39,199 bases of DNA from Caldilineales bacterium (lineage in GTDB: Bacteria; Chloroflexota; Anaerolineae; JAAEKA01). Both the position numbers and the translations under genes were made by a program. This document shows positions 31,260 to 39,107 of this stretch, one piece after another. Numbering within the stretch: the first letter of the stretch is position 1; every line of letters starts with the position of its first letter. Under the pieces are notes generated by a model, which saw only the letters and a program-made list of their open reading frames with translations, had not been told where the DNA came from and did no database searches. The stretch lies in contig JANWYQ010000031.1 of the NCBI GenBank assembly GCA_025055015.1, forward strand, positions 1-39,199, written 5' to 3'.

Positions 31260-31301
31260 GTTTACCGTTTACCGTTCACTGTTCACCGTCTACCGTTCAC
31301 C
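31260..31301. repeat. Heptamer array, six GTTYACY-type units
   Basis: Six head-to-tail 7-bp units in perfect register: GTTTACC, GTTTACC, GTTCACT, GTTCACC, GTCTACC, GTTCACC. The array ends 6 bp from the eno stop codon and 13 bp from the last palindrome. Confidence 0.9.
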
Positions 31302-36178: not shown

Positions 36179-36192
36179 GGTCTCTGAGACCA
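36178..36192. promoter_or_regulatory. Operator-like palindrome at the desulfurase transcription start
   Basis: TGGTCTC-T-GAGACCA is a perfect 7+1+7 palindrome overlapping the last base of the -10 box and the start site. The position fits a repressor operator. The cognate regulator is unknown; no regulator gene is adjacent. Confidence 0.55.
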
Positions 36193-36194
36193 TT

Positions 36195-36229
36195 GTCTAC
36201 CGTTCACCGATCACTGTTCACCGGTAACC
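36195..36229. repeat. Heptamer array forming the desulfurase 5' leader
   Basis: Five units, GTCTACC, GTTCACC, GATCACT, GTTCACC, GGTAACC, run to 4 bp before the ATG at 36234. They occupy most of the predicted leader and leave no Shine-Dalgarno sequence. Confidence 0.85.
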
Positions 36230-36233
36230 GACC

Positions 36234-37394
36234 ATGTCCGCGCCCAACATCGTCTACCTGGACCACGCCGCCACCACACCCATGCGGCCGGAGGTGCTGG
36301 ACGCCATGCTGCCTTACTTCGTCCAGCACTACGGCAACCCTAGCAGCCTGCACCGGGTGGGCCGCGAGGCCGCCAAGGCGCTGCGCCGCGCGCGCGAGCA
36401 GATGGCGGACGTGCTGGGCTGCTCGCCCAACGAGCTGATCGTCACCGGCGGCGGCACGGAGGCCAACAACCTGGCGCTGCGCGGGGTCGCCCTGGCCCAG
36501 CGCCAGCGCGGCCGCGGCCGACACCTGATCGTCAGCGCGGTTGAGCACAAGGGCGTGTTGGAGACCGCCTACCAGCTGCGCGACTGCTTTGGCTTCGAGC
36601 TGACGGTGCTGCCGGTGGACGCAGCGGGCCGGGTGGACCCAGTGGACCTGGCCGCGGCCATCCGGCCCGACACGGTGCTGGTGAGCATCATGGCGGCCAA
36701 CAACGAGGTGGGGACCCTGCAGCCGCTGGCCGACCTGAGCGCGATCTGCCGGGAGCGAGGCGTCCCCTTCCATTGCGACGCCGTCCAGGCCTCGCCGACG
36801 CTCTCCCTGCGGGTAGATGGGCTGGGGGTGGACCTGATGACCCTGGCTGCGCACAAGTTCTACGGCCCCAAGGGCGTGGGCCTGCTCTACGTCCGCCGCG
36901 GGGTGCCCCTCATGCCTCAGATCACCGGCGGCAGCCAGGAGAACAAGCGCCGCGCCGGCACCGAGAACGTGGCGGGCGCGGTGGGCATGGCGACCGCGCT
37001 GGCGCTCTCTCAGGCGGAGCGGGACGAGGAGGCGCAACGGCTGGCGGCTCTGCGCGAGCGGCTGATCGAGGGCGTCCTGGCGGCCGTCCCCGACGCATAC
37101 CTCACCGGCCACCGCTCGGAGCGCATGGTCAACCACGCCAGCTTCGTGGTGCGGGGCGTGGAGGCCGAGGGCATGTTGATCGGCTTGGACATGGCCGGCA
37201 TCTGCGCTAGCAGCGGCTCGGCCTGCACCAGCGGCGCCCACGAGCCCAGCCACGTGCTCACCGCGATGGGCGTACCGGCCATGGACGCGGTTGGCCACCT
37301 GCGCCTCAGCCTGGGCCACAGCAACACCGACGCGGACGTGGACCGGGTGCTGGCCGTGTTGCCCGGCTTGGTGGAGCGGCTGAGGAGAGGGTGA
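36234..37394 (+). CDS. Cysteine desulfurase (IscS/NifS family)
   Basis: 386 residues, PLP-dependent, moves sulfur from cysteine to a protein persulfide. Seen: YLDHAATTPMRPEVLDAM, the conserved His in EHKGVLE, Asp182 in FHCDAVQA, the PLP Lys208 in AAHKFYGPKG, and active-site Cys331 in SSGSACTSGAHEPSHVL. A standard IscS-type layout. Directly upstream of mnmA, so the likely sulfur recipient is tRNA 2-thiouridine synthesis, with Fe-S assembly also possible. No Shine-Dalgarno: the leader is a heptamer array. The stop codon lies inside the next heptamer array. Confidence 0.95.
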   Translation: MSAPNIVYLDHAATTPMRPEVLDAMLPYFVQHYGNPSSLHRVGREAAKALRRAREQMADVLGCSPNELIVTGGGTEANNLALRGVALAQRQRGRGRHLIVSAVEHKGVLETAYQLRDCFGFELTVLPVDAAGRVDPVDLAAAIRPDTVLVSIMAANNEVGTLQPLADLSAICRERGVPFHCDAVQASPTLSLRVDGLGVDLMTLAAHKFYGPKGVGLLYVRRGVPLMPQITGGSQENKRRAGTENVAGAVGMATALALSQAERDEEAQRLAALRERLIEGVLAAVPDAYLTGHRSERMVNHASFVVRGVEAEGMLIGLDMAGICASSGSACTSGAHEPSHVLTAMGVPAMDAVGHLRLSLGHSNTDADVDRVLAVLPGLVERLRRG

Positions 37395-37522
37395 GCGGGG
37401 AGCGGTGAACGGTAAACGGTGAACGGTAAACGGTGAACGGTGAACGGTAATCAGTGATCAGTGATCAGTGATCAGTGATCGGTAGTCAGTGATCGGTGAT
37501 CGTTAACTCGTAACCTGCGACC
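37390..37522. repeat. Nineteen-unit heptamer array between the desulfurase and mnmA genes
   Basis: The units run in unbroken 7-bp register: GGTGAGC, GGGGAGC, alternating GGTGAAC and GGTAAAC, GGTAATC, four AGTGATC in a row, GGTAGTC, AGTGATC, GGTGATC, GTTAACT, CGTAACC, TGCGACC. The TGA stop of the desulfurase (37392-37394) is inside the first unit. Nothing else is seen in the 189-bp gap. Confidence 0.93.
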
Positions 37523-37583: not shown

Positions 37584-38759
37584 ATGCCTCGCGTTGTTGT
37601 TGCCATGAGCGGCGGGGTGGATAGCTCCTTGGCCGCAGCCCTGCTGAAGGAGCGGGGCTACGAAGTGATCGGCGTGATGATGCGCCTGTGGGCCGAGCTG
37701 TCGGCCGGCGAGGCCAGCACCAACAAGTGCTGCTCGCTGGAGGCGGTCAACGACGCGCGCCGCGTGGCCGATGCGTTGGACATCCCCTTCTACCTGATCA
37801 ACGTTGAGCAGCCGTTTAAGGAGCGGGTGGTGGACTTCACCGTGGCCGGCTACCTGGCCGGGGAGACGCCCAACCCCTGCGTCCAGTGCAACCGCCACAT
37901 CCGCTTCGACTACCTGTTCAACTACGCCATGCGCCTGGGCGCAGACTACCTGGCCACCGGCCACTACGCCCGCGTCCGCCGCGTAGAAAGTGTGCCGTCT
38001 TTAGCTGAAAGCCATGAGACGCTCTCTACCGACCGCGGATCACCGATCACCGATCACCGGTCACCGCTCACCGGCTACTACCAGCTCCTCACCGCCGTTG
38101 ACCTGGACAAGGACCAGAGCTACGTGCTGCACGTGCTGACCCAGCGCCACCTGGCGCGGGTGCTCTTTCCGGTGGGCGAGTACACCAAGGCCGAGGTGCG
38201 ACAGATGGCGGCGGAGCGCGGGCTGCCCGTGGCCGGCCGGCGGGAGAGCCAGGACCTCTGCTTCCTGGCCGACGGTGACTATCGCCGCTTCCTGCGCGAC
38301 TGGGCGCCGGCCGGCGCCATCCGGCCCGGCCCCATCGTGGACAGCAGCGGCCGGGTGTTGGGCCAGCACAGCGGCCTGCCCTTCTACACCGTTGGCCAGC
38401 GCAAGGGATTGGGCATCGCGGCCCGCGAGCCGCTCTACGTGCTGCGCCTGGAGCCGGCCACCAACACCGTGGTAGTGGGCCCGGCGGCGGAGCTGGGCCG
38501 CGACCGGCTGACTGCGCGCACGGTGAACTGGATCGCCGGCCGGCCGCCGGATGGGCCGATCCGCGCCCAGGTGAAGATCCGCTACAAGGCGCAGCCTGTG
38601 GCGGCCACCGTGATCCCCCTGCCCAACGACCGGGCAGCGGTGCGCTTCGATCGCCCGCTGCGGGACATCACCGCCGGCCAGGCGGCCGTGTTCTACGACG
38701 GGGAGGTGTGCCTGGGGGGTGGGTTGATTGAGGTGGAGGAGGGGGTCGGTGAGCGGTGA
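37584..38759 (+). CDS. mnmA: tRNA 2-thiouridylase MnmA with a repeat-derived insertion
   Basis: 391 residues from ATG 37584 ([15 protein letters not shown]), about 30 longer than usual. The PP-loop SGGVDSS is at 9-15, catalytic Cys102 in NPCVQCN and second catalytic Cys226 in [14 protein letters not shown] and DKDQSYVL are conserved. It thiolates U34 of tRNAs for Lys, Glu and Gln using sulfur from a desulfurase such as the one upstream. Between [10 protein letters not shown] and [16 protein letters not shown] sits an extra stretch (about residues 134-164) partly encoded by heptamer repeats. The last residues GER and the stop also come from a heptamer array. An earlier ATG at 37545 adds 13 non-conserved residues. 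Confidence 0.95.
38024..38079. repeat. Heptamer array inside the mnmA reading frame
   Basis: Clear units GATCACC x3, GGTCACC, GCTCACC span 38038-38072, flanked by degenerate CTCTACC, GACCGCG and GGCTACT. GATCACC is the reverse complement of the GGTGATC unit at 37495-37501. The array is translated as [12 protein letters not shown] within the protein. Confidence 0.9.
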
Positions 38760-38810
38760 GCGGTGAACGGTAAACCGTGAACGGTGAACGGTAAACGGTG
38801 AACCGTGAAC
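38748..38810. repeat. Nine-unit heptamer array over the mnmA stop codon
   Basis: Units GGTGAGC x2, GGTGAAC, GGTAAAC, CGTGAAC, GGTGAAC, GGTAAAC, GGTGAAC, CGTGAAC in register. The mnmA stop TGA (38757-38759) lies in the second unit. Confidence 0.92.
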
Positions 38811-38816
38811 AGCGGA

Positions 38817-39000
38817 GTTCGCACCCCCAGGTGCGAACGCATGCCCAGCGTGGAGTACGCACCCCCAGGTGCGAACCCGTAAGCGCCGTGCTTCTCTGTG
38901 GAGTGCGAACCCCCAGGTGCAAACCCCCCGGCGCCTGGGGGCGCCTCCCTCCGCAGGCGAGAGGTGATTTCCCGCGGAGTTCGCACCCCCAGGTGCGAAC
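38817..39000. repeat. Array of four 22-bp palindromes, right copy, inverted relative to the left copy
   Basis: Perfect palindromes (GTTCGCACC-N4-GGTGCGAAC, loop CCCA) at 38817-38838 and 38979-39000; near-perfect at 38855-38876 and degenerate at 38903-38924. The segment 38921-39000 is the reverse complement of 31146-31225 with 6 mismatches in 80. The 408-bp interval from mnmA to the next gene holds this array, the heptamers, about 107 bp with nothing recognisable (39001-39107), and a promoter. Confidence 0.9.
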
Positions 39001-39107
39001 TCAATCGGGCACGTTGCGTTTCCCTGCGGCTACCAGTGCCCGGCGCAGTTCAGCGGAGCCGCCGCAGCCGCGTGTACCGGGCGCCCGCACGCCTGCCCGG
39101 CCGGTTG

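Follow-up and report, generated by a model that had tools for sequence, protein, structure and literature searches.

Heptamer repeats within the coding sequence of mnmA and other conserved enzyme genes in a family of Chloroflexota

The mnmA locus

The stretch of DNA analysed here (39,199 nucleotides of a Caldilineales draft genome, referred to as the window) carries a gene for tRNA 2-thiouridine(34) synthase (mnmA; 37584–38759, plus strand, 391 amino acids), identified by curated models, invariant motifs and fold. In profile searches its product passed both NF001138 (425 bits against a cut-off of 284, E = 1.4e-127) and TIGR00420 (344 bits against a cut-off of 237), and a 71-sequence alignment showed that the motifs of MnmA are kept, including SGGVDS (invariant columns S9–S14), C102, the region of C226 and KDQSY, C102 and C226 being nearly invariant. 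The gene product is MnmA, and its catalytic role is predicted from these sequence features. Pfam returned the MnmA domains and weak matches to related nucleotide-binding folds, and nothing else. The gene is present as one copy in the 4.14 Mb draft genome, a second protein match being spurious. A cysteine desulfurase gene (36234–37394), likely the sulfur donor for MnmA, is located directly upstream.

The window carries arrays of a 7-bp unit, in direct (D, plus strand) or inverted (I, minus strand) orientation. In the gap between the cysteine desulfurase gene and mnmA, a D array of GGTGAAC, GGTAAAC and AGTGATC units (37390–37515, plus strand) starts at the stop codon of the former. A second D array lies at the mnmA 3′ terminus (38741–38810, plus strand); its first units encode the last residues of the enzyme and supply its TGA stop (38757–38759). 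Both genes thus have their stop codon where a heptamer array begins. One I array (36188–36236, minus strand) immediately precedes the cysteine desulfurase gene, and another, intergenic and composed of GTTCACC and GTTTACC units, at 31260–31301 (minus strand). The window also contains a cluster of a REP-like palindrome, GTTCGCACCCCCAGGTGCGAAC, at 38814–39010. With two mismatches allowed, this palindrome gave 142 matches per strand in the genome, about 30 in the family genome G003 and 0–4 in other family members, and it often adjoins heptamer arrays.

An expanded, repeat-containing loop in MnmA

The loop between GHYAR and KDQSY counts 52 residues in the window MnmA, compared to 24–27 in 91 of 106 sampled MnmAs. 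The preliminary description had already called this loop unusually long, by about 30 residues; the expansion is real, with a count nearer to 27. The additional DNA (37986–38072, plus strand, approximately residues 135–163) is absent from MnmAs outside the family. It comprises a run of five GATCACC units (38038–38073, minus strand, I orientation), which is free of stops in all frames and is translated on paper as DHRSPIT, embedded in a wider heptamer-like stretch with degenerate units on both flanks (38024–38079, minus strand). Tandem Repeats Finder (TRF) described the run as period 7, 5.1 copies, 93% matches and unit GATCACC. Starting from 38038, 26 of 28 lag-7 comparisons matched, a value equalled in none of 2000 synonymous-codon shuffles and none of 2000 codon-order shuffles. 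As had been proposed, these units are those of the nearby intergenic array, in the form of its reverse complement: the GATCACC-type units are the GGTGATC and GGTGAAC units of the flanking arrays read in reverse complement (37404–37515 and 38741–38810).

The description of the whole insert as a heptamer repeat holds for the run at 38038–38073, which makes up only about 44% of the extra loop DNA. The 5′ part (37974–38041, plus strand) is unique in the genome and forms a weak, imperfect inverted repeat; a dispersed-repeat origin of this half found no support, no good second copy of 37984–38037 being present in the genome. At the RNA level, the hairpin of the whole window insert is not significant (z = −1.2).

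An AlphaFold2 (AF2) model of the window MnmA reached a mean pLDDT of 91.5 and a pTM of 0.89, and matched solved MnmA structures (Foldseek: 2HMA, E = 1.6e-42, TM 0.83–0.89; the fold also matches 2DET). The insert itself, between beta strands 129–134 and 165–170, was modelled at pLDDT 39–46, residues 143–156 being below 50. According to the model, the insert is a disordered beta-hairpin tip on an intact enzyme fold, in line with the earlier suggestion that a conserved enzyme tolerates the repeat in a surface loop.

Distribution of the heptamer in the genome and in the class

The heptamer follows the consensus NGTRANC, with GGTGATC and GGTGAAC (reverse complements GATCACC and GTTCACC) as dominant units. 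A 21-base pattern of three units was found at 523 positions in the genome, against one for the reversed control. When a similar pattern was searched in 199 Anaerolineae genomes, G000, G004 and G001 gave 444, 511 and 391 matches, the other three family genomes 36, 8 and 4, and each of 193 further genomes at most 16. The family set consists of six draft genomes. The reversed control pattern itself (CCACTWG-type heptamers) gave 31–103 matches in G105, G171 and G198, also Anaerolineae, which points to independent heptamer families within the class. In stretches L223–L241 of G001, the commonest period-7 unit was of the AATGCGT/AACGAGT type, beside the GGTGAAC type.

Array statistics were obtained with a simple ORF caller on 1.29 of the 4.14 Mb (31%) of the genome. 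This portion contained 69 heptamer arrays, against 12 in the reversed control, most of them intergenic. Seventeen arrays were located inside called genes, twelve of these in the orientation without a stop in any frame. Intragenic arrays in L155, L179, L251 and L262 were left out as probable 5′ over-extensions of ORFs. Arrays appeared to be directed away from the adjacent gene (D by the left gene 9:2, I by the right gene 20:1); this rule was given no weight as evidence, as it is biased by the ORF caller, which halts at D arrays and continues across I arrays.

Inserts in other conserved genes

That heptamers can enter coding sequence, as initially stated from mnmA, was borne out by other genes and by four sister species that carry such inserts. 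A copper-type P-type (P1B) ATPase (L176) holds two inserts, one after DKTGTITEGRPRVTD and one before VVAMVGDGINDAPA, and adenylation domains of nonribosomal peptide synthetases (NRPS; twice in L204, and in L145/L146 and L254) hold an insert between PDPF and LYKTGDL. In valyl-tRNA synthetase (ValRS, valS; L218) there is one insert, ahead of LADRWILSRL. Because the full-length ValRS gene is single-copy and the only one found in the genome, it makes a stronger case than mnmA for tolerance in an essential-type enzyme. The inserts typically consist of a direct arm (GDQLSVIGDQLSV) with an inverted arm after it, and several are predicted to form strong RNA hairpins (first copA insert of G000, z = −5.8; valS of G004, z = −4.6; mnmA of G003, z = −4.0).

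Two further loci were noted. In L148 (2500–4089, minus strand) a CoxM-like FAD domain and a CoxS-like 2Fe-2S domain form one ORF with a degenerate heptamer linker between them, possibly a gene fusion through an intergenic array. The adenylation domain of an NRPS module in L204 (7036–17280, plus strand) holds a second, unrelated repeat of EAVTTKDRAPLGSGGF units.

Stop codons and probable translation of the inserts

Each D-orientation unit contains TGA or TAA at bases 3–5, and a run of three units puts one of these in frame. In the direct arms among the eleven conserved coding sequences examined, none of the 17 in-frame units retained its stop, a zero that is partly forced because intact ORFs were the ones examined, compared to 25 of the 30 off-frame units of the same arms (p = 1e-8). 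Among intergenic units, 241 of 297 contain the stop. The purging of stops in the translated frame only suggests that the inserts are translated, and is not what splicing or bypassing would predict. Removal of the segment before or during translation, by intron-like splicing, ribosomal bypassing or intein-like excision, would suit its position, splitting a conserved protein between two conserved motifs. It is nevertheless most improbable: the loss of in-frame stops would be needless in a segment that is removed, no stop interrupts the ORF, and neither an intein nor a self-splicing intron would fit into so short a segment. No splicing domain or intron core was found in the MnmA insert, an open frame of about 27 codons.

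Filled, short and empty sites in related genomes

In the sister genus all four MnmA loops are expanded (52, 55, 44 and 74 residues), and the loop counts 33 residues in a third, more distant genus. Loop length varies among relatives (52, 52, 55, 44, 74 and 33 residues including the window), and the differences do not follow the expected steps of 21 bp. The expanded loops differ in sequence and most contain heptamers in one or both orientations; a loop conserved at the protein level in relatives without heptamer DNA, which would have argued for an ordinary domain feature, was not encountered. The G004 mnmA loop (L008) also holds an 8-bp array (CAATCTAC), indicating that non-heptamer repeats too enter this loop.

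Since the genome is a draft of 238 contigs and repeats are prone to assembly errors, an artefact of the metagenome bin might be suspected. Expanded loops were, however, found in five separately assembled genomes, each in frame, an array of five 7-bp copies fits within one sequencing read, and in-frame continuity is seen at many sites, which makes such an artefact highly implausible.

An adaptive, functional extension of MnmA, involved for instance in binding of the tRNA or the sulfur donor and repetitive by chance, is a further explanation, and one that we hold to be unlikely. The expansion has persisted in each of the five genomes from the two closest genera, which account for the only five loops above 41 residues among the 106 sampled MnmAs, and loops of 29–41 residues are present in unrelated MnmAs of this sample. 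On the other hand, the loop sequence is unconserved among species that are 76–78% identical elsewhere, AF2 predicts disorder, unrelated enzymes hold the same repeat and the DNA matches intergenic repeats.

The ValRS insert was found at the same place in G000, G003, G004 and G005; no insert could be recognised in G001, and G002 has none. The ATPase orthologue of G002 lacks the first insert, as read from its sequence, and, judged by the length of the alignment gap (about 16 residues against 56 in G000), the second as well; the ATPase loops of G005 are shorter and without the GGTGATC/GGTGAAC heptamer. The mnmA and valS sites were probably filled before the two genera split and have turned over since, and the MnmA insertion is probably old, turning over and common to both genera, not recent. 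The resemblance between inserts in different genes of one species exceeded that obtained when labels were permuted (p = 0.0016; 14 hand-picked inserts), which fits an exchange between sites inside one genome.

Proposed origin of the inserts

The explanation that we consider probable is a lineage-specific heptamer repeat, propagating or slipping, that selection has filtered into permissive loops. The heptamer would have multiplied mostly between genes, through slippage together with some form of copying between sites. Copies would also arise in genes, where selection would spare those in flexible surface loops and inter-domain hinges. Survival there would require an open frame, provided either by the I orientation or by a D arm whose in-frame TGA or TAA units have mutated. 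In mnmA, the insert would lengthen a beta-hairpin tip with a disordered, translated peptide and leave the fold intact. The inserts in MnmA and in the other enzymes would then be neutral. The movement of copies between sites is itself something we infer; neither a transposase nor a mobile carrier came to light for the heptamer arrays, and no target-site duplication was seen.

Replication slippage in situ, starting from chance seeds in each gene without movement between sites, is a less probable yet serious candidate. Among long simple repeats, those with heptanucleotide units are the most frequent in most bacterial genomes, and polymerase slippage has been put forward as a cause (PMC4679880, PMC4692102), and the unit variants in our data differ from site to site. 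Slippage alone, however, does not make the pairs of D and I arms seen in many inserts, and it agrees poorly with the presence of NGTRANC at hundreds of sites in few genomes and hardly in others, or with the resemblance between inserts in different genes of one species. A bolder version, in which the D–I inverted pair is an actively propagating element, appears unlikely to us; its copies, made through template switching or a dedicated mechanism, would settle time and again in loops of housekeeping enzymes and keep supplying the lineage with new protein sequence.

The repeat, with a 7-bp unit whose length is not divisible by three, is carried in frame by central enzymes, including the only full-length ValRS found in the genome. 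The record of codon phase shows a route to translatability, as every third unit loses only its in-frame stop, and the empty, short and long states of one site across species provide a natural series from repeat DNA to protein and for loop tolerance. A small family of uncultured Chloroflexota would thereby offer a new natural example of junk-like DNA becoming protein.

Comparison with known repeat systems

Simple repeats of prokaryotes are usually associated with intergenic DNA or with the switching of surface genes. No papers on inserts such as those described here were found for Chloroflexota in the open-licence literature.

Heptamer direct repeats at many, mainly intergenic sites place the present arrays among the tandem heptamers of the STRR/TAACTGA type. 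TAACTGA arrays have been reported in Beggiatoaceae, Cyanobacteria and Bacteroidetes (MacGregor 2015, PMC4679880), and resemble ours in being mainly intergenic and species-specific, with forward arrays that supply gene-end stops and reverse arrays that are open in all frames. AGTTATC, the rotated reverse complement of TAACTGA, is one base from AGTGATC and occurs here as a minor variant only, the exact TAACTGA unit not being the repeated one. Within ORFs, TAACTGA copies fall mostly at the ends of proteins or in hypothetical ones, forward arrays being necessarily at ORF ends (PMC4679880), whereas the present inserts lie mid-enzyme, at the same sites in several species, with forward arms opened by loss of the in-frame stop. 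STRR and G-rich heptamers, such as GGGAATC in Xanthomonas and GGGGA(C/T)T in Nostoc (PMC4692102) or GGGACCG in Geobacter metallireducens (PMC2700814), likewise form genome-wide arrays that vary in length between relatives and are in some cases intragenic; their units are different, and the passages available from these sources do not concern in-frame tolerance in conserved cores.

Housekeeping genes that contain in-frame repeats have been described before, with the Rickettsia palindromic elements (RPEs) and with the protein-coding palindromes of Wolbachia and of Methanocaldococcus (Ogata 2000, 2002, via PMC10969869 and PMC2996958). RPEs share with the heptamer inserts the in-frame presence of short repeated DNA in unstructured segments of housekeeping proteins, and several of our inserts are likewise inverted repeats with strong predicted hairpins, unlike that of the window MnmA. 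RPEs are, however, families of elements about 150 bp long that encode a conserved peptide, as opposed to a 7-bp tandem array of variable length, without fixed ends or a family sequence and with arms that may differ in heptamer type; the heptamer inserts thus share the in-frame insertion and lack the fixed element of about 150 bp. By analogy, the heptamer appears to work like RPEs, and we do not claim that it is one. What is new here is the presence of tandem heptamers in conserved enzymes, with a forward arm opened through loss of the in-frame stop.
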